Source: an uncultured Desulfatiglans sp.
Lineage (GTDB): Bacteria > Desulfobacterota > DSM-4660 > Desulfatiglandales > Desulfatiglandaceae
DNA length: 64,000 nucleotides
NCBI GenBank assembly: GCA_900498135.1
Contig: LR026961.1
Location: 707,518-771,517, forward strand
Direction of reading: 5' to 3'
The notes under the pieces are model-generated. The model ran no database searches. It had not been told where the DNA came from and was given only the letters and a program-made list of their open reading frames with translations. A program made the translations under genes and the position numbers. Shown piece after piece: positions 2,824-43,575 of the stretch; the stretch's first letter is position 1; each line of letters opens with the position of its first letter.

Positions 2824-4158
2824 TCAGGATGCCGACTTTATCCTGGAAAAAACCTTCCAGCTTTTCAGCAGATCCAAGGCATACCGAACTTGGTTGTCTT
2901 TTTCGAGGAGGGCCTGTGCGGCCTCCTCTCCCGGATCTTTGGCATCCTTTTCGGCGCCTTCCTCCGCATCGGATTTTTCGGAGGGCAGGTGCCCCTCCAG
3001 GTCCTCTTCCCTCATCATGAGCGAGAGGTCTTCTTTGGCCTTGTCCTTTTCAGCCCTGACAAAGGGCACTTCCACATCCGGCATGATCCCGCTCGACTGA
3101 ATCGAACGTCCGCTGGGAGTGTAATATAAAGAAGTGGTCAGCCTCAACCCGGAGCCGTCCGAAAGAGGCAGGATCGTCTGGACCGACCCCTTGCCAAAGG
3201 TCCTGGTACCCACGACCAGTGCGCGGCCGTTGTCCTGCAACGCCCCGGCCACAATCTCGGCCGCGCTGGCGCTCCCCCCGTTCACCAGCACAGCGATGGG
3301 GTACGGCCTTGCGTGATCATCCCGGTGCGCGCTCGCCTCGATGTTCTGGGAGGAAATCCGTCCCTTGGTCGTCACGATAAATCCGGAATCGAGAAAAAGG
3401 TCCGACACGTCTATGGCCTGGGACAAAAGGCCGCCCGGGTTGTTCCGCAAATCGAGGATGAGCCCTTTCAACTCCCCACTCTGCTCCAGGCCATCCAACG
3501 CCTGAGATAGCTCTTCAGCCGTTTTGCTTTGGAACGTGGATACCCTGGCATAACCGATATCCGGGGTCAGCCTGAAGACCTTGACACTCTTCAGGGGAAT
3601 GACATCCCTTTTGATGGCGAATTCCAGGGGGGCCTCTTCCCCCTCACGGATGATGGTCAAATGGACTTCTGTCCCCCGGGGACCGCGGATCATCTTGACC
3701 GCCTCGGTCAGCGTCATGTCTTTGGTGAACTTGTCTTCGACTTTGATGATCTTGTCCCCCGCCTGCAAGCCCGCATCATAGGCCGGGGTCCCCTCGATAG
3801 GAGAAACGACGGTCAGCACATCGTCTTTCAGCGTGATCTCGATGCCGATCCCCGTAAAACTGCCCTGGGTCTCCTGCATCAACTCCTGATGCTCCTCCCG
3901 CGTCATGAAGGAGGAATGGGGATCGAGGCTCCCAACCATCCCTTTGATAGCGCCGTAGATCAGTGTCTGAGCATCCTTCGGCTCCACATAGTTCTGTTCC
4001 ACCTCGCGCAGGACCTCCGCGAATACCTCGAGGTTCTTGTAGACATCGTCGGTCCCGGCACGCACAGAGTCATGCCGGCCGTTCAAAAGGAAAGACCCCA
4101 GGATGACCAGGCACGCCAGCCCAAAATACCTGCCGAATCTTTTCGCAAACTGATGCAT
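2824..4158 (-). CDS. ctpA: Carboxy-terminal processing protease, S41 family
   Basis: The 444-residue protein is a C-terminal processing peptidase that trims envelope proteins in the periplasm. A signal or anchor helix spans about residues 10-26, a PDZ domain about 100-175 (QGSFTGIGIEI), and the protease domain follows. The catalytic pair is visible: Ser298 in GGSASAAEI and Lys323 in RTFGKGSVQ, 25 residues apart as in characterised CtpA enzymes. The C-terminal tail is rich in Glu, Asp and Lys. The ATG at 4158 has GAGGAG at good spacing. It sits between envC and the deacetylase gene, consistent with a role in cell-wall remodelling. Confidence 0.93.
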   Translation of the reverse strand: MHQFAKRFGRYFGLACLVILGSFLLNGRHDSVRAGTDDVYKNLEVFAEVLREVEQNYVEPKDAQTLIYGAIKGMVGSLDPHSSFMTREEHQELMQETQGSFTGIGIEITLKDDVLTVVSPIEGTPAYDAGLQAGDKIIKVEDKFTKDMTLTEAVKMIRGPRGTEVHLTIIREGEEAPLEFAIKRDVIPLKSVKVFRLTPDIGYARVSTFQSKTAEELSQALDGLEQSGELKGLILDLRNNPGGLLSQAIDVSDLFLDSGFIVTTKGRISSQNIEASAHRDDHARPYPIAVLVNGGSASAAEIVAGALQDNGRALVVGTRTFGKGSVQTILPLSDGSGLRLTTSLYYTPSGRSIQSSGIMPDVEVPFVRAEKDKAKEDLSLMMREEDLEGHLPSEKSDAEEGAEKDAKDPGEEAAQALLEKDNQVRYALDLLKSWKVFSRIKSAS

Positions 4159-4235
4159 TCGTTTCTCCTCGCCCCCGCCGCAAGAGGGGCGCCGCTCAGT
4201 TGATTCCTTTCCACAGTTCCAAACGAAAACAGGAA

Positions 4236-4272
4236 GATCTTTTCACCGGCTTGGCCGGTGCAGGGAAAGATC
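4236..4272. repeat. Nested inverted repeat between envC and ctpA
   Basis: GATCTTT (4236-4242) pairs with AAAGATC (4266-4272). Inside lies a perfect seven-base stem CACCGGC-TTG-GCCGGTG (4244-4260). The structure falls in the envC-ctpA gap. No long T-run follows on either strand, so it is not a canonical terminator; it may be an attenuator or an mRNA-processing stem. Confidence 0.6.
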
Positions 4273-4353
4273 ATTGACCAAAACACCATCGATCACCCTG
4301 CCTGCATCTCACACGCCCGGACCTTCACCCTCAGCTTCAGGCAGAACAGACCG

Positions 4354-5487
4354 TCATGGCAGACCGAACCATTCACGCGGGTCGAGGTTCTCCGTTCCCG
4401 TCCTGATCTCGAAGTAGAGCGGTCCTCCACCTTTTACCGATCCCAACACCTCCCCCGCCTCCACCCACTCTCCCGTCTTTCTGCGCCGCTCGGCCAACTG
4501 GCCCATAACGGTATAAAATCGGCGTCCGTGATTCATGATAATCATATCACCGTATCCTTTCAGCCTTCCAGAAAAATCAATCCGGCCGGGGAACACGGCT
4601 TTCACCGTATCCTCATCCCCACGGATGAAGACGCCCTTGCGCTGATCGAGGTCGTTCTTACTCAAGAAGTCTTTAGCGGAAACAATCTCTCCGGGCAAAG
4701 GAGGCTGCAAACTCCCCTTGGCCCTCTCAAAATCCGAAAAAGCACGTTCTTTCGACGGCGATTCTTCCTCCTTCAGCATCGAAAGCCGATCCCTCATTTC
4801 CTTGGCGGCCACCTCGAGTTCCCTCACGGCCGTCTCGTAAAAATCCTTTTCCTGATGAACCTTTACGAGATCGAGAACCCTGCCCCCCAGCTCTTCCTGC
4901 ATCGCAGCGGCCTGCTGTTCCAGAGCCCGATGCCGCGTCAGGGCATCTTGCAGGCCGGCCTCGAGTTCGGCTATCTTCTGTCTGCCGGCCGAAGACTCTT
5001 CCACGAGCCACTGTAATTCCCTCCCGTCGCGGCTGACGATTACCTTCAGGTATTTGATCAGATGCAGCAGTTCGCGCAGGCCCTGGGACGAGAAAATCGT
5101 CTTCAGATACCCTTCCCGGGCAAACTTGTAAAATACGTTCAGTCTTCGGGCGAGCTGCGCTTCTATGGCAGCGGCCGCATCTTCCATCCCGGCGATGGCT
5201 TCCTTCCGGGATTCAATTTCCTGCTCCAATGCCCGCTGTTCCCTGTTCAGGCGATCCAGGGCCGCCTCACCGGATCGAACCTTCTCCTGCAGCATGGACA
5301 ACTCGGCCAGCAGGTCTTTTTCGCGCAGCTGAGCGGCCTCGAGTTTCTGCGCCTCCTCCGAAAGGTGGGTCTCGATTTGATCGAGCCGACGCACCGCATT
5401 TTCCGCCGCCCGGGACATCCCAGGGGAGCCCCAAATCCACAAGGCACCCATGACGATCACCACCTGGAAAATCCGGCCGGCGCTCAA
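4354..5487 (-). CDS. envC: EnvC-like murein hydrolase activator (coiled coil plus degenerate LytM domain)
   Basis: The 377-residue protein has an N-terminal signal segment, a long coiled coil (about residues 28-245) and a C-terminal M23/LytM domain (about 265-377). The LytM domain lacks zinc ligands: the usual HLHFEIR motif reads PLYFEIR and the YGHL-like segment reads VMGQL. That is the state of EnvC and related activators, which switch on amidases instead of cutting the wall themselves. The gene follows ftsX by only nine bases, matching the known FtsEX-EnvC partnership in daughter-cell separation. The start is TTG with AGAGG upstream. Confidence 0.88.
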   Translation of the reverse strand: MSAGRIFQVVIVMGALWIWGSPGMSRAAENAVRRLDQIETHLSEEAQKLEAAQLREKDLLAELSMLQEKVRSGEAALDRLNREQRALEQEIESRKEAIAGMEDAAAAIEAQLARRLNVFYKFAREGYLKTIFSSQGLRELLHLIKYLKVIVSRDGRELQWLVEESSAGRQKIAELEAGLQDALTRHRALEQQAAAMQEELGGRVLDLVKVHQEKDFYETAVRELEVAAKEMRDRLSMLKEEESPSKERAFSDFERAKGSLQPPLPGEIVSAKDFLSKNDLDQRKGVFIRGDEDTVKAVFPGRIDFSGRLKGYGDMIIMNHGRRFYTVMGQLAERRRKTGEWVEAGEVLGSVKGGGPLYFEIRTGTENLDPREWFGLP

Positions 5488-5496
5488 AAAAACCTC

Positions 5497-6393
5497 TCAT
5501 ACGTCGAAGAAACGGCTCACGGCGATCAGACTGCCAATAACCCCCAACAGCGCGCTGCCGGCGAAAACGGCTAACAGCAGGTGGGGAGGAACAAACACGA
5601 CCTCCAGAACCGGGATATCCATCCACTGGATCTCCCTCGCGGAAAGAAGCAGATAGCTCAGATAGAGAATACCCAAGGACACGGCTCCGCTCAAAACGCC
5701 CTGCACCAGACCCTCGAGGAGGAAGGGCGTCTTGACAAACCAGTCGGTTGCCCCGACCAGTTTCGCAATTTCGATCTCCTCCCGGCGTGCATAAATCGTC
5801 AACTTGATGGTATTGACGACGATAAAAAGCACCCCCACCGCCAGAAGCCCTCCGAGCACGGTGCCTCCAATCCTCAGCACGTCAAGCAAAGCGCGAGCCC
5901 GCCCGCGCCAGTCCTCGCTCAACACGACCTCATCGACACCGGGCAACGCCTCGACACTCCGCTTGAATTCCAGAAGCTCCGCCCCGTCCACCTTCGCCGC
6001 CTCGAACACCACGTCCAGGGCGATGGGCAGCGGGTTGGGATCAGGCAGATCATCCAGGATTTCCTTCTGGTCCCCGAGTGCCCTCCGCAAGATCTGCATC
6101 GCCTCCTCGCTCGACACGGTTCGCACGCATTCCGCGCCCTCGAATGACGCGATGAGCCCCTCGACCTGCCGCTTTACAGGCTCTTCTGCATCACTCCGAA
6201 TATAGACGGAGGCGAAAAGGCTGTCACCCCAACCGCGGACCCAGCTATTCAGGTTGACGAAAAGGAGAAGGAAAAACCCGAAGATCAGCAGAGATACCGT
6301 CATCGTGCCTATCCCGATCAGCTGCACCATTCGGTTGGCGCGCAACCCGGCCATCGCCTGACGAAACAGATAAACGATCAGATAGATTTTCAT
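5497..6393 (-). CDS. ftsX: Cell division protein FtsX
   Basis: The 298-residue protein has the FtsX pattern: a cytoplasmic N-terminus, a first membrane helix (about 25-47), a periplasmic domain (about 50-165), and three further helices in the last 130 residues with the typical NTIKLTIYARREEIEIAKLVGA segment. FtsX is the membrane half of the FtsEX complex, which relays division signals to periplasmic wall hydrolase activators. The ATG overlaps the stop of ftsE (ATGA), so translation is coupled. The EnvC-like activator follows directly. Confidence 0.95.
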   Translation of the reverse strand: MKIYLIVYLFRQAMAGLRANRMVQLIGIGTMTVSLLIFGFFLLLFVNLNSWVRGWGDSLFASVYIRSDAEEPVKRQVEGLIASFEGAECVRTVSSEEAMQILRRALGDQKEILDDLPDPNPLPIALDVVFEAAKVDGAELLEFKRSVEALPGVDEVVLSEDWRGRARALLDVLRIGGTVLGGLLAVGVLFIVVNTIKLTIYARREEIEIAKLVGATDWFVKTPFLLEGLVQGVLSGAVSLGILYLSYLLLSAREIQWMDIPVLEVVFVPPHLLLAVFAGSALLGVIGSLIAVSRFFDV

Positions 6394-7046
6394 GGGTCAT
6401 CCAAAACGGCACCCCGATCGAGTCTGATCCGTCGATGCCCCATCTCCTCCAGCAGCTCCCGGTTGTGCGTCGCAATGATCACAGTGGTCCCTTTCGCGTG
6501 GATCTTGCGTAGGACATGCATGATTTCAAGCGTCAGATCCCAATCCAGATTGCCGGTGGGCTCATCGGCCAACAGGATGAGCGGGTCCTTGACGATCGCC
6601 CGTGCGATCGCCACCCGCTGCTGTTCACCCCCCGACAGTTCCAGCGGGAACATGGACTCCTTGTCCGCCAGGCCCAATGATCGAAGGGTTTGGTGGGTCT
6701 TCTTGCGGATCGTTCCCGGGCGCTCGCCGCATACCTCCAGGGCCAGGGCTACATTTTCGAAAACCGTCTTGCCGGGCAGCAGTTTGAAATCCTGAAACAC
6801 GAAACCGATCTTACGGCGAAGCAAGTCGAGATTCGAGCGGCTGATCCGGCTCAGGTTGATGCCATGGATCAAGATTCCCCCGCTCGTCGGCCTCTCCGAT
6901 CCAAAAATCAGCCGCAGCAGGGTCGTCTTACCGGCCCCGCTCGGCCCGGTCAAAAAGATGAACTCACCGGTATTCAGCGTGAGGTTGACATCTTTCAGTG
7001 CGACACAGGCCCCGAAACTCTTGCTCAACCGGAAAAGCTGTATCAT
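6390..7046 (-). CDS. ftsE: Cell division ATP-binding protein FtsE
   Basis: This 218-residue ABC ATPase has Walker A GPSGAGKTTLL, the signature LSGGEQQRVAIARA, Walker B ILLADEPTGNLD and the switch His in ATHNRELL. It pairs with FtsX at the division site. FtsE length is usually about 220 residues, as here. The ATG at 7046 is followed by the conserved opening IQLFRLSKSFG. It is the first gene of the ftsE-ftsX-envC unit. Confidence 0.95.
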   Translation of the reverse strand: MIQLFRLSKSFGACVALKDVNLTLNTGEFIFLTGPSGAGKTTLLRLIFGSERPTSGGILIHGINLSRISRSNLDLLRRKIGFVFQDFKLLPGKTVFENVALALEVCGERPGTIRKKTHQTLRSLGLADKESMFPLELSGGEQQRVAIARAIVKDPLILLADEPTGNLDWDLTLEIMHVLRKIHAKGTTVIIATHNRELLEEMGHRRIRLDRGAVLDDP

Positions 7047-14718: not shown

Positions 14719-14758
14719 GAAAAATCTCCCGCAACGAAAGAGATCCTTATCTAAATCC

Positions 14759-14930
14759 CATCCGGAAATCACTTCCTGTTAGAACCCAGTTTCCCATCCG
14801 GAAATGAGGATTTTTCTTTACACACTGCGCGTGCTCAGTCCCACCGCTTCACGCCGGGTCCCGGTTTGGCCAATATCAAGCAAACGTGCAGATTGACGCC
14901 AAAATGGGCCAAAAAGACCATTTCCGGATG
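14759..14930. repeat. Dispersed inverted-repeat element, copy A
   Basis: The element opens with CATCCGGAAAT (14759-14769, with a second copy at 14795-14805) and closes with the exact reverse complement ATTTCCGGATG (14920-14930). It shares CGTGCTCAGTCCCACC with copy B and AAACGTGCAGATTGACGC (14882-14899) with copies B and C. It lacks the central hairpin block of about 50 bases found in B and C. There is no coding capacity and no transposase nearby. Confidence 0.8.
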
Positions 14931-14936
14931 AAAACT

Positions 14937-29141: not shown

Positions 29142-30617
29142 ATGGAGATCCTGAACAAACTCTACCGCCACTCCCTCACCCTGCTGACCGATCTCTACGA
29201 ACTCACGATGGCTTACGGCTACTGGAAACTCGGGATGGCGGACAAGGAGGTGGCCTTCCACCTGACCTTTCGGCAAAACCCCTTCAAGGGCGGCTACGCG
29301 GTGGCATGCGGCCTCAGCCAGGTCATCGACTACCTGCAGAACTTCCGCTTCGACGACGAAGACATCGCCTACCTCGGCACCATCCCCGGCAACGATGGCC
29401 GCCCCATCTTCGATAACGCCTTTCTCCAATACCTCAAGGGCCTCACCCTGACCTTCAACCTGGACGCCCTGCCCGAGGGGACCGTCGTCTTTCCGCAGGA
29501 ACCCCTGGTGCGCGTCACCGGCCCTTTGCTGCAGTGCCAGATCCTCGAGTCGGCCCTGCTGAACATGATCAACTTCCAGACCCTGGTCGCCACCAAGGCG
29601 GCGCGCATCTGTCTGGCCGCCGAAGGCGACCCCGTCATGGAGTTCGGACTGCGGCGCGCCCAGGGGATCGACGGCGGGGTCTCCGCCAGCCGCGCCGCGT
29701 TCGTTGGCGGCTGCTCCGGGACGTCCAACGTCCTGGCCGGAAAGCTCTACGACATCCCGGTCAAGGGCACGCACGCCCACAGCTGGGTGATGGTCTTCGA
29801 TGACGAACTGCAGGCCTTCCGGGACTACGCCAAAGCCATGCCCAACAACTGCATCTTTCTGGTGGACACCTACGATACGCTCCAGGGGGTCCGCCACGCC
29901 GTCGCGGTGGCGAAGGAGCTGCGCGAGGCCGGACACGAGATGGTGGGGATCCGGATCGATTCGGGGGATCTTGCCTACCTCAGCAGCGAGGCCCAGAAGA
30001 TCCTGGAGGAGGCGGGATTCGGAGACAAGAGCATCGTCGGAAGCAGCGACCTCGATGAACACGTCATCCACAGCATCAAGGTGCAGGACGCCCCCATCAG
30101 CAGCTGGGGGGTCGGGACGCGCCTGGCCACCGCCTACGACGATCCCGCCCTCGGCGGAGTCTACAAGCTCACGGCGGTGCGAAACAAGGACGGCCGCTGG
30201 GATTACAAGGTCAAGCTATCCGAGCAGCTGATCAAGGCCACGACCCCCGGGGTCCTGCAGGTGCGCCGGTACCGGCGCAATAACGATTTCAAGGCGGATG
30301 CCATCTACGATGTCCAGCTGGGCGTCGAAGAGCCCTGCACGATCGTGGACCCGCTCAATCCCACCCGTCTGATGCACATCCCGACCGGCACTCCCCACGA
30401 GGATCTCCTCGTTCCGATCTTCAAGGGAGGCCGCCTGATCTACGACGTTCCCGCCTCCAGCGCGGCCCGGCAGCGGTGCCTGGATCAGCTCGAGCGCCTG
30501 CACCCGGCCATCCGCAGGCTCCTGAACCCCCACGAGTACCCGGCCGGCATCGAGATGCGGCTCCACGACCTGCGGACCGATCTGATCCGCGCCGCACGCG
30601 AAGCCGCCGGGAAGTAG
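29142..30617 (+). CDS. pncB: Nicotinate phosphoribosyltransferase
   Basis: The 491-residue enzyme makes nicotinate mononucleotide from nicotinate and PRPP in NAD salvage. Visible blocks are [36 protein letters not shown]-type residues in the active site, [11 protein letters not shown] with the phosphorylatable His, and [14 protein letters not shown] chose the ATG at 29142 with GAGGAG upstream; an ATG at 29103 is possible. The last 49 codons (30467-30614) are duplicated 2744 bases downstream at 33211-33358, with only synonymous differences, and an AT-richer lipoprotein cassette lies between the copies. Confidence 0.94.
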
Positions 30618-30660
30618 CCGCTCTTATAAACCAGCCAGATAGAACAGGAGAAAAAATCGA

Positions 30661-31638
30661 ATGCGAAAAGAGAACCCTTTGCTCATCATCGCCTCATTTG
30701 CACTGCTGGCTGCAGGATGCGCCACGCTCGACGAAGATACCGTGGTGCAAATGCCCCAACAACCTGTAATCAGCAAAACGCTGCAGCAGTCACAAGAGGA
30801 AACACCAAAAGGCCTCAAGCGCAAAGTGGCGGTCGCCCGTTTCTCCAATGAGACCAGATATGGCCAAAGTTTTTTCATCGATGCAAGCAATGATAGAATC
30901 GGAAAACAGGCATTGGATATTCTTTCTGCCAAATTGATGGCAACAGACAAATTCATCCTCCTTGAAAGGGCGGATTTGGATAAAATCGAAAAGGAGCTTG
31001 CACTCGGAAATGCAGGGAACCTTCGCAACATGGCAGACTATCTGATTGTTGGATCAGTCACTGCTTTCGGAAGAAAGGATCAAAGTGAAGTTGGAATTTT
31101 CAGTAGAGTCAAAAAGCAAATCGCCTATGCTAAAGTCCATATTAGATTGATCGACGTTTATACTGGGCAAATCATATATTCTGAAGAAGGTGAAGGGGAA
31201 GCATTTTCCGAGGCAGGAACTGTTTTCGGTGTCGGGCAGAAAGCAGGATACGATTCCGCACTTAACGATAAGGCACTAGAAACGGCCATTAATAATCTAT
31301 CATCGAATATCATTGAGAACCTACTGGATAAGCCTTGGAAGGCATACATCTTAGGATATGAAGATGGATACTTCATCATTTCAGGAGGTCAATCACAAAA
31401 CATAAAACCTGGATCATTCTTCGAGGTGATCCAGGAAGGGAAAAAAGTTAAGAACCCGCAAACCAATATGTTTCTGACGCTTCCCGGGCATAAAATCGCG
31501 GAACTAGAAGTCGTTCAGTGTGTTGGAGATACCGTCGAAAACGAAGTATCCTTATGCAACCTAGCCCATGGTTCTTTATCTCCATTTATTGAAAAGAATG
31601 ATTTCTCACAATTATACATAAGTGAAAGCGACAGGTGA
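30661..31638 (+). CDS. CsgG-family outer-membrane lipoprotein
   Basis: The 325-residue protein has a lipoprotein signal with lipobox LLAAGC (Cys20) and a CsgG domain: KVAVARFSNETRYGQ, QALDILSAKLMATDKFILLERADLDKIEKE, ADYLIVGSVTAFGRK and VHIRLIDVYTGQIIYSEEG, each typical. In the curli system CsgG forms a nonameric export pore. Homologues in other clusters pair with DUF4810 and DUF799 lipoproteins as here, with no curli subunit. The last 90 residues extend beyond the pore domain (ISGGQSQNIKPGSFFEV). AGGAG lies upstream of the ATG. It is the first gene of the cassette. Confidence 0.9.
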   Translation: MRKENPLLIIASFALLAAGCATLDEDTVVQMPQQPVISKTLQQSQEETPKGLKRKVAVARFSNETRYGQSFFIDASNDRIGKQALDILSAKLMATDKFILLERADLDKIEKELALGNAGNLRNMADYLIVGSVTAFGRKDQSEVGIFSRVKKQIAYAKVHIRLIDVYTGQIIYSEEGEGEAFSEAGTVFGVGQKAGYDSALNDKALETAINNLSSNIIENLLDKPWKAYILGYEDGYFIISGGQSQNIKPGSFFEVIQEGKKVKNPQTNMFLTLPGHKIAELEVVQCVGDTVENEVSLCNLAHGSLSPFIEKNDFSQLYISESDR

Positions 31639-31644
31639 TTCGAT

Positions 31645-31989
31645 ATGAAAATAAGGGCAATATTTGTTATACTTAGCTTTTTATCTTTAGCAATATGCGG
31701 ATGCGGATATCAAGAAGGCGTCATTGAACCAGATCGCCAATCCTATCTGCACTTTACTGGCAACACTGAGAACGCTATTTTTTATATTGATGATGGCAAT
31801 GGAATTTTGATAGAGGGTAATTATTACACAGATTCACAGACTGGCCAGAAAATTCATAGAGAAGGCCGCGTACTATATGAAATTATTCCCGGAAAACACG
31901 AAATCCTAGTAAAAAGGAATGGGACCGTTGTCGTTAAGCGTCTCTTAATGGTCAATAAAGGATCAACCGTGGAGGTACATATTCCATGA
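31645..31989 (+). CDS. Small lipoprotein of unknown function within the CsgG cassette
   Basis: This 114-residue protein has a signal peptide ending in a lipobox-like LAICGC. The mature part is all-beta in character (FYIDDGNGILIEGNYY, VLYEIIPGKHEILVKRNG, then a basic strand VVVKRLLMVNKGSTVEV) and recalls PEGA-like surface domains, although I cannot assign it to a family. It lies six bases after the csgG-like gene and its stop overlaps the start of the DUF4810 gene. It is an addition to the usual three-gene CsgG-DUF4810-DUF799 set. Confidence 0.8.
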   Translation: MKIRAIFVILSFLSLAICGCGYQEGVIEPDRQSYLHFTGNTENAIFYIDDGNGILIEGNYYTDSQTGQKIHREGRVLYEIIPGKHEILVKRNGTVVVKRLLMVNKGSTVEVHIP

Positions 31990-32435
31990 ATTATAAGTTT
32001 TTTCTATTTTTTACCATGCTGGCTTTGAGCGTCGCCATTGTCGGGTGCACTCCGAAAAGCCAAATGTATTATTGGGGAAATTATTCCGGCAACTTATATA
32101 ATGCGAAAAAAAATCCTTGTGCTGAGTCACTATCAGAGCATAAAGCCGGCCTCGAAGCCATCATAGATGAGTCCAAAACTCGAAATTTAAGGGTTCCTCC
32201 AGGCGTTTACGCTGAGCTTGGGTATATATACTCTATGGAGAACAACACTCAAATGGCGATTGAATTGTTTCAACTTGAACAGAATACATATCCTGAATCG
32301 GGCATTCTTATGGCGCGACTGATTCAACAAGCCGAAAAACGTGCTGCAGACGGAAATGAACGGGGAAATACCCCAGCGGAAATTTCAATCCAGAATGAAA
32401 AAGAAATAGGAGATTTGGAAAGTGAAAAAAACTAG
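31986..32435 (+). CDS. DUF4810 lipoprotein
   Basis: The 149-residue protein has a lipobox VAIVGC and the family hallmark MYYWGNYSGNLYNAKK right after the signal. The rest is helical with one TPR-like pair (PPGVYAELGYIYSMENN, QMAIELFQLEQNTYPES), ending in a charged tail. DUF4810 proteins are found next to CsgG-like and DUF799 lipoproteins in many Proteobacteria, including Neisseria. The ATG overlaps the previous stop (ATGA) and the end overlaps the next gene by 14 bases, so the unit is tightly coupled. Confidence 0.88.
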   Translation: MNYKFFLFFTMLALSVAIVGCTPKSQMYYWGNYSGNLYNAKKNPCAESLSEHKAGLEAIIDESKTRNLRVPPGVYAELGYIYSMENNTQMAIELFQLEQNTYPESGILMARLIQQAEKRAADGNERGNTPAEISIQNEKEIGDLESEKN

Positions 32436-33135
32436 CAGGATCTTCTTTTCTCTTTTGTTACCTTTGCTTTTCCTTGGCGCAATGGTGTCTGGATGTGCCA
32501 CGGTTCAAATGACGACTAAAGGCGAAGAGTTTCCAAAGATGTATGAAGAATCGCCAGTTGCCATACTTGTCTTGCCTCCTATAAACGAGTCGACAGCTGC
32601 AGACGCTAAACAATACTACGCTACCACAGTTCAAGAGGCCATTTCTTATTGGGGATTTTATATCTTCCCATATGAAATCACAACTGACATTCTAAAAATG
32701 GAAGGTCTGTATGATACTGAATTGCTATTAAATATGCCCATCAGTAAATTCCGTGAATATTTTGGCGCGGATGCGGTTCTATTTACAACGATAAAAAAAT
32801 GGGATCTTAGTTATATTGTAATCGCTTCCACACTAACAGTTGCTATCGAAGCTGAGTTGAAATCTACAATAACTGAACAAACTTTATGGAGTTATAGAGG
32901 AACAGTTGTAGTCGATCTTTCCGGAGGTCAACAGGTTGGCGGTGGATTGGCAGGGATCATAGCACAGTTAATAATAACGGCTGTCAATTCTGCTGTCGCA
33001 GATTATGTTCCTTATGCTAAACAAGCCAATTATCGAGCACTGTCAACTCTTCCCTTTGGGAAATACCACCCCGACCACATGACTGATCAAAGCATGTCTT
33101 TTCCAGATTTGACGCCTGGAAAAACGGATTTATAA
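32422..33135 (+). CDS. DUF799 (GNA1162-type) lipoprotein
   Basis: The 237-residue protein has a lipobox MVSGC and the DUF799 pattern: SPVAILVLPPINESTAADAK, YYATTVQEAISYWGFYIFP, FREYFGADAVLFTTIKKWD and a C-terminal VADYVPYAKQAN. The Neisseria homologue GNA1162 is an outer-membrane lipoprotein whose fold resembles TolB-like domains. It is the last gene of the cassette; 75 bases later the duplicated pncB fragment begins. Confidence 0.9.
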   Translation: MKKTSRIFFSLLLPLLFLGAMVSGCATVQMTTKGEEFPKMYEESPVAILVLPPINESTAADAKQYYATTVQEAISYWGFYIFPYEITTDILKMEGLYDTELLLNMPISKFREYFGADAVLFTTIKKWDLSYIVIASTLTVAIEAELKSTITEQTLWSYRGTVVVDLSGGQQVGGGLAGIIAQLIITAVNSAVADYVPYAKQANYRALSTLPFGKYHPDHMTDQSMSFPDLTPGKTDL

Positions 33136-33210
33136 GGGCGATGTTTATCGAGCTGGTCCAGACGATGGCAGAAAATGGCTGGTACAGAAAATTTTCACGC
33201 GTTCGATGGG

Positions 33211-33358
33211 CCGGCAGCGGTGCCTGGATCAGCTCGAGCGCCTGCACCCGGCCATCCGGAGGCTCCTGAACCCCCATGAATACCCGGCCGGCATCGAGAT
33301 GCGGCTCCACGACCTGCGGACCGATCTGATCCGCGCCGCCCGCGAAGCCGCTGGGAAG
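33211..33358 (+). pseudogene. Displaced 3' fragment of the nicotinate phosphoribosyltransferase gene
   Basis: This stretch matches 30467-30614 over 148 bases with five mismatches. All five are synonymous when read in the pncB frame (Arg, His, Glu, Ala, Ala codons), so the 49 encoded residues ([17 protein letters not shown] and on) are identical. The copy has no start signal of its own, runs past the original stop and ends eight bases before the kamA stop codon. It is most simply the original end of pncB, cut off by the cassette. Confidence 0.85.
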
Positions 33359-33365
33359 GTGCAAC

Positions 33366-35165
33366 TCAATAATAGTACCAGATTGTCCGATAGTCCGCGG
33401 GGTCTTCTCCCACGGTCTTGAGACGCTTCATATAGTCGTAGATCGACACGTCCGTGTAGACGTAGGTGTCGACCAGTTCCAGCTTCTTTTCCCAGGGATG
33501 GAACTCGAAGACCCGGCATCCGTCGGGCAGGATCGAGATGACGTCGTGATGCTGCCTTGCGCGCAGGTAATTCTTTCCGAGGCGCGGTACATTGAAGACG
33601 ATCTCGTCGGTCCGCACGGTCCCGGGCAGAAGCCGCGCCTCCTCGTGCTGCTCCTGCAGCAGACGGCTGATGGGCACCCGGTATTCGTCGGTCTCTTCCT
33701 TCCCTTTGGTGTTGAAGGTGTAGTAAGGCGTGACCCCGATGAGGCGCAGCTTGTGGCGCAGGAAGGCGGCCTCGAACTTCCGCGAGTTGTAGAAGGTGTA
33801 GACCAGCTGGTTGTAGACCTCCATGCCGTAGCGTCTGAATTTCTGCACCGCCTCGAGGGCCTGGGGCGTGATCTCGTAGGGGTGCTCGAAGTGGGTGATG
33901 ATGATCACCTCCCGCTTGCCGGGGTGATGGAAGTGGTTGATGTCCCGCACCAGCGTGTCCGTGATCCGCTGCGGCAGCGTGACCGGCGTGCGGGTGCCGA
34001 TCCGGATCCTCTCCACGTGGGGGATCTTCGAGAGGCGGTAGAGGAGGTTTTCGATACGGTCGTCCGAGAGCAGCAGCGGATCCCCGCCGGTTACGAGCAC
34101 CTCGTGGATCTCCGGGGTCTCTTCGATCCAGTTCAGGGCCCGGTCGAGCTTCTCCTGCCCGAGGGCGGCATTGGCCGAATAGACGTCTTCGATCTCCCAG
34201 TTCCGCTGGCAGTAGACGCAGATCTGGGGGCAGGTCAGGATCGGCTTCAAGATCACGATGGAGGGGTAGCGCCGCGTGATGCCCTCGATCGGAGAGGTGT
34301 CGCGCTCGAGCATGAAGTCCATCGAATGCTCCGAGCGCTCCCGCAGGGCCATCATCTTGGTGACATAGTGCATACTCGGCAGGACCTGCGCCCGGACGGC
34401 GGTATCCCGTCCCCCGCCGGGCTTTCGATCGAAGAGGGACAGGTAGTACGGCGTGATGCCGAAGGGGATCCGGTTTTCCCTCGCCAGCTTGATCGCCCGG
34501 TACTCGTCCCCGGTCAGCTCGACCATGGCCGCGAGGGTGTCGGCGTTGCGGATGATGTGCTTCGTCTGCCAGCGCCAGTCGTCCCATTCGAGCTCCGTCG
34601 CCTTGAAGTAGTCGAGGATCCGGACCTTGTTGCGGCTGCGGCGCCGGATCACATCCTCGTCGAGGCCGCAGGCGTAAAGCGCCATGAACTTCTCCGCCGC
34701 ATGCATCATGCGCGAGAGGTCCGCGGAGCGGAGCTTCGCCGCCCGGCGGCCTTCATACTTCGGAAACGCCGGCATCTTCTCCTGGTAGATGCCGCTCTTG
34801 CCCATCACCCCGCGCATGAGATGCTCGACCTCGGCCAGGAAACCGGGCGAGGGCCGATCGAGGCCGTGGTAGTCGGGCCGATGGAGCAGGTCGTTCAAGT
34901 ACCCGAGCAGGCTGTATCCCGCAAGGCGCTCGCTGCGCCTGGACAGGATGCTTTCGAAGACCCTGATGGCGTCCCGGACCTGGATGCACTCGAGCGGGGG
35001 CACCGAGGGATCGTCCTCGAGCGTCCTGCGCAGCATGTCCTCCAGAAAATGCCGGATGCTTTGGCGTTTGTCATCGAGCGGGGCCTCCGACAACAGGATC
35101 TCCTTAATCGGAGGCGCCAGATCCAATATCTTGAGCAGCCGTGATCTGATCTTCTCTCGTTCCAT
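33366..35165 (-). CDS. KamA-family radical SAM aminomutase-like protein
   Basis: The 599-residue protein has the lysine 2,3-aminomutase fold, with the radical SAM cluster motif CPQICVYC at residues 312-319 and VLVTGGDPLLLSDDRIENLL after it. Lysine 2,3-aminomutase is about 420 residues; here about 180 extra N-terminal residues precede the core. The PLP lysine and substrate residues cannot be assigned by eye, so lysine, glutamate or another substrate is open. The ATG at 35165 has GAGAGG upstream. It faces pncB, and the displaced pncB fragment abuts its 3' end. Confidence 0.85.
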   Translation of the reverse strand: MEREKIRSRLLKILDLAPPIKEILLSEAPLDDKRQSIRHFLEDMLRRTLEDDPSVPPLECIQVRDAIRVFESILSRRSERLAGYSLLGYLNDLLHRPDYHGLDRPSPGFLAEVEHLMRGVMGKSGIYQEKMPAFPKYEGRRAAKLRSADLSRMMHAAEKFMALYACGLDEDVIRRRSRNKVRILDYFKATELEWDDWRWQTKHIIRNADTLAAMVELTGDEYRAIKLARENRIPFGITPYYLSLFDRKPGGGRDTAVRAQVLPSMHYVTKMMALRERSEHSMDFMLERDTSPIEGITRRYPSIVILKPILTCPQICVYCQRNWEIEDVYSANAALGQEKLDRALNWIEETPEIHEVLVTGGDPLLLSDDRIENLLYRLSKIPHVERIRIGTRTPVTLPQRITDTLVRDINHFHHPGKREVIIITHFEHPYEITPQALEAVQKFRRYGMEVYNQLVYTFYNSRKFEAAFLRHKLRLIGVTPYYTFNTKGKEETDEYRVPISRLLQEQHEEARLLPGTVRTDEIVFNVPRLGKNYLRARQHHDVISILPDGCRVFEFHPWEKKLELVDTYVYTDVSIYDYMKRLKTVGEDPADYRTIWYYY

Positions 35166-35395
35166 CGTATGTCCTCTCTCAGTGAACTGCATGATGTCCG
35201 GCGGGCTTGCGGCGCCCTGAAGCACGGCAGGAAAGCCGCCCCGAACCAGGCTGATGCAGGCCGGGCGTCAGAACCCCTCCTGCAGCCATAGGGAATACCC
35301 TCAGCGCTCAACCGGCTTTGACCGGAAACGGTCGATTGCCTCGAGCCAGGCACACAGGGTGGCATCCTGTCCGATCACGCCTGGACGTCCACCCG

Positions 35396-38448: not shown

Positions 38449-39366
38449 GCTCACTCCCCTGTCCGGTCAGTCGTTGCATGCTCTCTTCCAGGCCGGTTTC
38501 CCCAAAAAGCATCCTTGCCCCGAAGGCCGCCGGGCGCGCCGCACCCCGAAACAAGCCGGTCTCTTGATCATCATTCTTCATGAATAACAGGACCTTTTCC
38601 CCGTATCCGGCAGCGGTCTCCCGGATGATAGACGGTCAACACGGGCACCCCTGCCACGCCCAGAACGGTCGATGTCACCAGCGGTCGCACCATCGTCTCA
38701 TCCTGGGCGGCGGAGTACATCGACAGGGCGTAGGGGGAACTCCCTGAAAGGCCCTGCCTGTGCGTCCCTTCGGATTCTCCTGCCGGACGGGCCTCGGAAG
38801 TCCCTCTGGGCTGCCGGACCCATTCATTGCCGGGACCAAGGGATTCCCGCTGTGCTGATTCAGTGATCGGTTTGCGGAGGGACAGCCCGCAGGTCATCGG
38901 GTCAACGCACAGGTCGATACCCGGATCGGTCGAAAAGACCTTTTCCGTATGGAAACGCTTCAACGAAATCGGCAGGACAGACAGAAAAACTGCGAAGAAG
39001 AGATCTTCGCCGGATAAATCGAAGAACAAGCATCCGAGGATATCTGCGATCACGAGAGATCACAGCTCAGAACACATGAGCACAAATATTTTTGCATAGA
39101 ACGGGTTTCTTGTCAACCCATCTGCCGAACACGGGCGGCGGGATCCCGCCCGCTCTCGAGTTCGACCCGATGCACGGGACCATTTTTTGAAGATTCAAAG
39201 GAGAATGAGGATTTTTAGACAATATAAAGGAAATCAAACGTTTGCGAAGATGCGACCTGTAGGTCGCCGGACAAGCAAACGTGCAGATTGACGCAGAGAT
39301 TGGCCAAAAAGACCATTTCCGGATGCAAACGAGGTAGTTTCCAAGATCTCTACCGGCATGCCGCCT
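38449..39366. other. Gap of 918 bp between the enoyl-CoA hydratase and the helicase
   Basis: I see no supported gene. A minus-strand frame at 38571-39053 lacks family features. The gap contains a perfect palindrome GGCGGGATCCCGCC (39137-39150) and copy C of the dispersed element (39202-39325). Confidence 0.6.
39202..39325. repeat. Dispersed inverted-repeat element, copy C
   Basis: The element shares AATGAGGATTTT on the left, AAACGTGCAGATTGACGC (39277-39294), and the closing ATTTCCGGATG (39315-39325) with copies A and B. The opening CATCCGGAAAT is missing. Its centre is a nested hairpin: ACGTTTGC (39238-39245) with GCAAACGT (39275-39282), enclosing the perfect GCGACCT-GT-AGGTCGC (39252-39267). 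Confidence 0.8.
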
Positions 39367-43014: not shown

Positions 43015-43232
43015 CATCCGGAAATAAAGCTTTGAAAACGAAATAGTTTCCAGACCCGAAATGCGGATTTTCCCTACAGGCTGAACGTGCTCAGTCCCAC
43101 CCCTGCGGGGCGGGCCCCGGTTTGGTTAATATTAATGAAATCAAGCGTTTGCGCGGAGGAGACCTACAGGTCGCCGCACAGCCAAACGTGCAGATTGACG
43201 CCGTGATGGGCCAAAAAGACTATTTCCGGATG
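43015..43232. repeat. Dispersed inverted-repeat element, copy B (full length)
   Basis: This 218-base copy has both ends: CATCCGGAAAT (43015-43025) and ATTTCCGGATG (43222-43232), exact reverse complements. It includes the CGTGCTCAGTCCCACC block shared with copy A, the central GACCT-AC-AGGTC hairpin shared with copy C, and AAACGTGCAGATTGACGC (43184-43201) shared by all three. It codes for nothing. Confidence 0.85.
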
Positions 43233-43575
43233 GAAACGAATTCGGATGGCGAAGCTTTTCAATGGGGTTCAAAGCGGCATCTTCCAGCGCGGACCTTCGT
43301 TTGAAAATCGTTTCAAAATCGCCTTGGGTATGGCAGAGTGTTGTCGAAGAGTACCCTCCCCAAATTGTTTTTTGTTGTTTTTACAGCATATTACGAAACG
43401 CTTTCTCTTTTTGAAGCCCTTTGAATGAAGCTTGCCCGGTGCGCAGGAAACGGGCCTTTCGCGCGTTCGCGACGGGGGCGGGGACGGGCAAGCAGGCGGG
43501 CCGAAGCCGTGGAAGTAAAACGGCGGCGGATGACGGGAATGGATCGTCTGGAAACACCTTCCTTTTCAAGGCTTC

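Follow-up and report, generated by a model that had tools for sequence, protein, structure and literature searches.

One-sided homologous uptake as the probable origin of a lipoprotein operon behind pncB in an uncultured Desulfatiglans

Described systems resembling the pncB locus

In the prophages e14 and phage 21, the 3' end of icd is replaced by an incoming copy, and the old end is found at the far side; this integration depends on an integrase and a fixed site. The locus described here is in the window (the whole 64-kb stretch of DNA that was analyzed), where the 3' end of pncB is duplicated around a four-gene lipoprotein operon. It differs from the icd prophages in that it has no integrase, and the second case that we describe (locus L070) uses another gene. 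As for the cargo, the CsgG, DUF4810, and DUF799 set of Neisseria, which we take to form one operon at NMB1124-1126 and NMB1162-1164, differs from the window operon, which has an extra fourth protein (114 aa) between CsgG and DUF4810. The Neisseria GNA1162 protein, solved as 4hrv, belongs to the same family as the product of window gene 4, with only ~30% identity.

In homology-facilitated illegitimate recombination (HFIR), horizontally transferred DNA recombines homologously at one end and is joined illegitimately at the other; it has been described in naturally competent bacteria (Acinetobacter, Streptococcus pneumoniae, and Pseudomonas stutzeri), as well as in E. coli conjugation (PMC3240628). 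The pncB case resembles it in what would be a homologous crossover at one end and an illegitimate joint at the other, with non-homologous DNA gained beside the anchor (PMC3240628). HFIR is rare in experiments and has a low frequency in E. coli, in which most such products are instead duplications formed by single crossing-over; in E. coli conjugation, a duplication was present in 56 of 60 clones, and the 14 that were sequenced were 109-950 bp long (PMC3240628). Unlike these experiments, the pncB case is known only as an evolutionary scar, and its illegitimate joint would lie inside the anchor gene, so that the tail of the gene is kept twice. For the type VI effector-immunity arrays of Vibrio cholerae, an HFIR-like mechanism was proposed by the authors; the arrays share with the pncB case a conserved upstream anchor, a new module, and an old 3' piece displaced downstream, but they keep whole immunity genes, whereas the window has a decaying tail behind a housekeeping gene, with a lipoprotein operon as the cargo (PMC5361080).

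The pncB locus and the empty site of a sister species

The 3' end of pncB is present twice in the window as a direct repeat with 94% identity over 160 bp (Table 1). The original prediction had stated that the last 49 codons recur with five mismatches in 148 bases, and exactly five were counted in the core repeat (30467-30614 and 33211-33358), the two copies of which differ by 3.4%. This repeat is by a wide margin the strongest self-match within the window (151 bp, E = 2e-65), and the other self-matches are short intergenic repeats. The distal copy lacks the 5' part of the gene, has lost the stop codon (TAG to GTG), and directly abuts the 3' end of kamA. The right joint lies inside pncB, and the sequence upstream of the joint is unrelated. 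Through this joint, the stranded pncB tail gains an in-frame ATG, which results in a predicted open frame of 71 codons (33206-33421).

The insert (30618-33207, ~2.6 kb) has a GC content of 41.7%, compared with a mean of 61.3% (sd 3.2%, minimum 55.3%) in equal-sized segments elsewhere, and the GC3 values of the cassette genes (0.33-0.43) are far from those of the neighboring genes (0.83-0.89). The comparison of composition and codon use thus bears out the earlier description of AT-richer lipoprotein genes between the copies, and all four encoded proteins have lipobox-like N-termini. As originally noted, no integrase or transposase is present: judging from the open reading frames and Pfam, the insert contains the four lipoprotein genes only, with no other recombinase, and no tRNA or Rfam target was found at the site. 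Because the window sits within a single-contig genome of 4.8 Mb, a misjoined short contig is unlikely.

Table 1. Features of the pncB locus (positions are those of the window).
Feature	Position	Strand	Basis
pncB (nicotinate phosphoribosyltransferase), anchor host gene	29145..30617	+	Pfam NAPRTase_N and NAPRTase_C; 97% aa identity to G001
Foreign-looking pncB tract (110 bp), taken as donor sequence	30354..30463	+	Change-point against G001
Proximal copy of pncB 3' end; completes working gene	30464..30623	+	Repeat comparison
Cassette gene 1, CsgG-family lipoprotein	30661..31638	+	PF03783, E 1e-29
Cassette gene 2, 114-aa lipoprotein-like protein	31645..31989	+	No significant Pfam family; position conserved in 13 related cassettes
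Cassette gene 3, DUF4810 lipoprotein	31986..32435	+	PF16068, E 2e-24
Cassette gene 4, GNA1162-like (DUF799) lipoprotein	32422..33135	+	PF05643, E 7e-30; solved relative 4hrv
Insert tail, 72 bp, reaching right joint	33136..33207		No significant relative among 85 genomes of the class
Distal copy, remnant of original host pncB 3' end	33208..33367	+	G001 variants and G001-type post-stop sequence
KamA-like radical SAM gene (putative; name from the original prediction), convergent right flank	33366..35225	-	Open reading frame; syntenic in G001, ~95%

The genome of a sister species (G001) has ~95% DNA identity over the window; in this one sister genome compared, pncB is joined straight to the kamA end, and the operon is absent. 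The distal copy runs into the post-stop sequence of G001 (CTCAATAATAGTACCAGAT) and agrees with G001 at four of the five positions where the two copies differ; it is therefore the old pncB end of the host. Relative to this empty site, the window has gained non-homologous DNA, as in HFIR, and the uninterrupted pncB-kamA junction, which the distal copy matches, supports the proposal, made from the window alone, that the cassette was inserted at the pncB 3' end. The proximal copy is thus the one that either entered with the insertion or was rebuilt afterward. Elsewhere in the window, a dispersed intergenic repeat family (14754-14935, 39221-39332, and 43045-43239; about 60-200 bp, 77-92% identical) is common to the window and G001 and is located where synteny blocks break, and a 694-bp stretch of G001 (contig C21, 56117-56811) is absent from the window at ~59869.

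Just upstream of the proximal copy, pncB contains a divergent tract. The proportion of codons differing from G001 rises from 9% to 30% at 30354 (maximum chi2 = 27.4, permutation p < 5e-4); the change-point obtained from synonymous differences alone is weak (p = 0.09). Of the 33 residues encoded by 30366-30463, 10 differ between the window genome and G001, compared with 4 of 407 upstream and none of the 50 in the duplicated part, so that the tract differs from the upstream part with a Fisher p of 1e-9 and from the duplicated part with a p of 4e-5. No comparable excess is seen in the other family pairs that were compared: the variability of this stretch is only 0 to 2.6 times that of the upstream part, with the last 50 residues at about the same level. 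The end of the tract, at 30463, is no more than 4 bp away from the first base of the core repeat. Outgroup polarization of the tract resulted in a tie between the window genome and G001 as the changed lineage. The tract fits a donor sequence in which gene conversion would later have brought the last 148 bp into line with the distal copy; with a divergent donor end, such conversion is needed, since the proximal and distal 148 bp are now so similar.

The operon and a second scarred locus

The four cassette genes form one tight operon, in which the genes of the CsgG, DUF4810, and GNA1162 families are adjacent and co-oriented. To judge from the family names, the products may form an outer-membrane lipoprotein complex; a sequence search with the window CsgG protein gave no PDB match, and no literature treating the function of the operon directly was found. 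The GNA1162 protein occurs in 2 of the 85 genomes of the class, the other being G074 (66% identical), and in 24 of the 395 genomes of the phylum sample, mostly with <40% identity. The close four-gene relatives are in records named Desulfobulbaceae, Desulfosarcina, Ignavibacteriaceae, and Thermodesulfovibrionia and have unrelated gene contexts. A tree built from three concatenated proteins places the window operon with an Ignavibacteriaceae contig and Desulfosarcina, apart from the member of its own family. This grouping points to horizontal movement of the operon as a unit. Among plasmids and phages, only distant GNA1162 relatives (~30% identity) were found, and there were none among viral contigs; no donor with pncB beside the operon was present among the cassette loci searched. 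IS110-family transposase genes are located near the operon in L039 (4400-5413 and 6410-7492) and L066 (1-599, partial). In L107 (G519), the GNA1162 gene has two in-frame TAA codons (~1817-2470), and the operon there thus seems to be decaying.

The original prediction had suggested a search for the four-gene set beside other gene 3' ends with similar duplications, and one such locus was found. L070 (JAHJQU010000389.1), from a second genome, carries these four genes downstream of a DUF4410 lipoprotein gene, whose final 157 bp recur on the far side of the operon with 76% identity. Two relatives of this locus (L093 and L094) have the order EamA-DUF4410-MalY with no cassette. The distal DUF4410 piece has 94% aa identity to these relatives, compared with 72-76% for the proximal C-terminus. 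The proximal gene is a mosaic: 63 of 69 informative sites are host-like before ~3187, and 10 of 40 are host-like after it (chi2 = 50.3, p < 5e-4). The distal remnant, which begins at codon 145, is host-like along its full length, and the crossover is placed at ~3140-3199. From this pattern, the left junction is a homologous crossover early in the DUF4410 gene, with the remainder of the gene being donor-type, and the right joint is non-homologous, inside the host DUF4410 gene. The operon of L071 is 88% similar to that of L070, and the shared sequence extends only over 3964-6684; therefore, the DUF4410 ends are not part of the cargo. A long target-site duplication was considered for the outer L070 scar and was rejected, the proximal copy being donor-type and the distal copy host-type. 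An inner direct repeat (3814-3948 and 6792-6924, 135 bp, 90%) also brackets the L070 operon; it has no other copy in that genome, no family was found for it, and it may mark an earlier event of this kind.

On the other hand, ~30 further cassette loci, several with short flanks, gave no clear scar, and the scar is therefore rare or soon lost. Candidate scars in L099, L112, L116, and L122 were based on distant, short, or repetitive matches, and for L064, taken as a possible third locus, the nearest relatives are only 74% identical. The anchor gene is pncB in the window and DUF4410 in L070, and the contexts elsewhere are different again, with no shared attachment site.

Route of acquisition

The best explanation of the pncB locus, and in our judgment the probable one, is HFIR, which would make this case a newly found natural instance of an established process. 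The ancestor of the window species would have acquired the operon horizontally after the split from the sister species, the incoming DNA consisting of the operon preceded by the 3' part of a related pncB. A homologous crossover at the left end would have taken place near 30354, within the host pncB. The right end, which had no sequence in common with the host, would have been joined illegitimately within the host's own pncB 3' end, so that the final 148 bp of the original gene remained on the far side of the operon as a stranded piece. The working gene would thereby have retained a full C-terminus, and the remnant would have decayed, losing its stop codon. Gene conversion would probably have evened out the shared 148 bp later, leaving the unconverted donor tract just upstream. 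As for the entry of the DNA into the cell, which in HFIR is by uptake of linear DNA, ComEC is present in the window genome and weakly suggests natural competence; ComEC is widespread.

The main rival to the HFIR route is single crossing-over of a recircularized fragment. A linear fragment would have circularized, losing part of its pncB homology, and would then have been integrated whole by one crossover that duplicated the homologous stretch. The length of the duplication in the window falls within the range reported for the E. coli duplications (PMC3240628), but after a Campbell-type event the distal copy should begin with donor sequence and extend at least as far 5' as the crossover, and donor sequence is not seen there. 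In addition, the foreign tract of pncB begins 110 bp before the distal copy does, and in L070 the position of the crossover relative to the host-like remnant would require a later deletion of the remnant start, which leaves this route rather unlikely. Template switching during repair or replication, in which the operon DNA was captured and the pncB end was copied twice with no donor pncB, would suit both the near identity of the copies, the difference being about that expected to build up since the split from G001, and a possible microhomology at the right joint. We nevertheless consider it decidedly unlikely: it leaves unexplained why the divergent tract stops so close to the repeat start, and the proximal gene of L070 is clearly donor-type.

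The original prediction also described an element that brought its own copy of the gene end and thereby repaired the gene. This proposal is only partly right; a self-moving element is disfavored by the lack of a recombinase, by searches that found no close phage, viral-contig, or plasmid relative, and by the foreign-looking sequence that begins ~110 bp before the repeat. A site-specific integrative element that, like the icd prophages, has its attachment site in a gene 3' end (here that of pncB) and that has since lost its integrase would have the observed architecture (an intact proximal gene, cargo, and a truncated distal copy). However, no recombinase is present in the insert, L070 uses another gene with the crossover deep inside it, no close relative of the operon was found in phages, viral contigs, or plasmids, and the flanking repeats are absent at other cassette loci. 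Since there is no recombinase and different genes are used, we regard such an element as highly improbable. The three bracketing duplications are of similar length (pncB, ~150 bp; DUF4410, ~160 bp; inner repeat of L070, 135 bp), and an unusual mobility of the operon itself, with ~135-160 bp copied at the target, is a very doubtful reading; the two cases do not show the operon to be the driver, because both were found by searching for the operon. One-sided homologous uptake of the operon is a better reading than a self-moving element because of the crossover and the non-homologous joint of L070.

The window and L070 would thus represent two natural cases in which a whole operon was gained beside a resident gene, with no mobile element involved and the gene left unbroken, and for one of them host-type, donor-type, and empty-site sequences are all available. 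The scar, i.e., an intact gene, an operon, and a stranded old tail, is easily scanned for, and such scanning would give the frequency of one-sided homologous uptake as a route of gene gain in uncultured bacteria.
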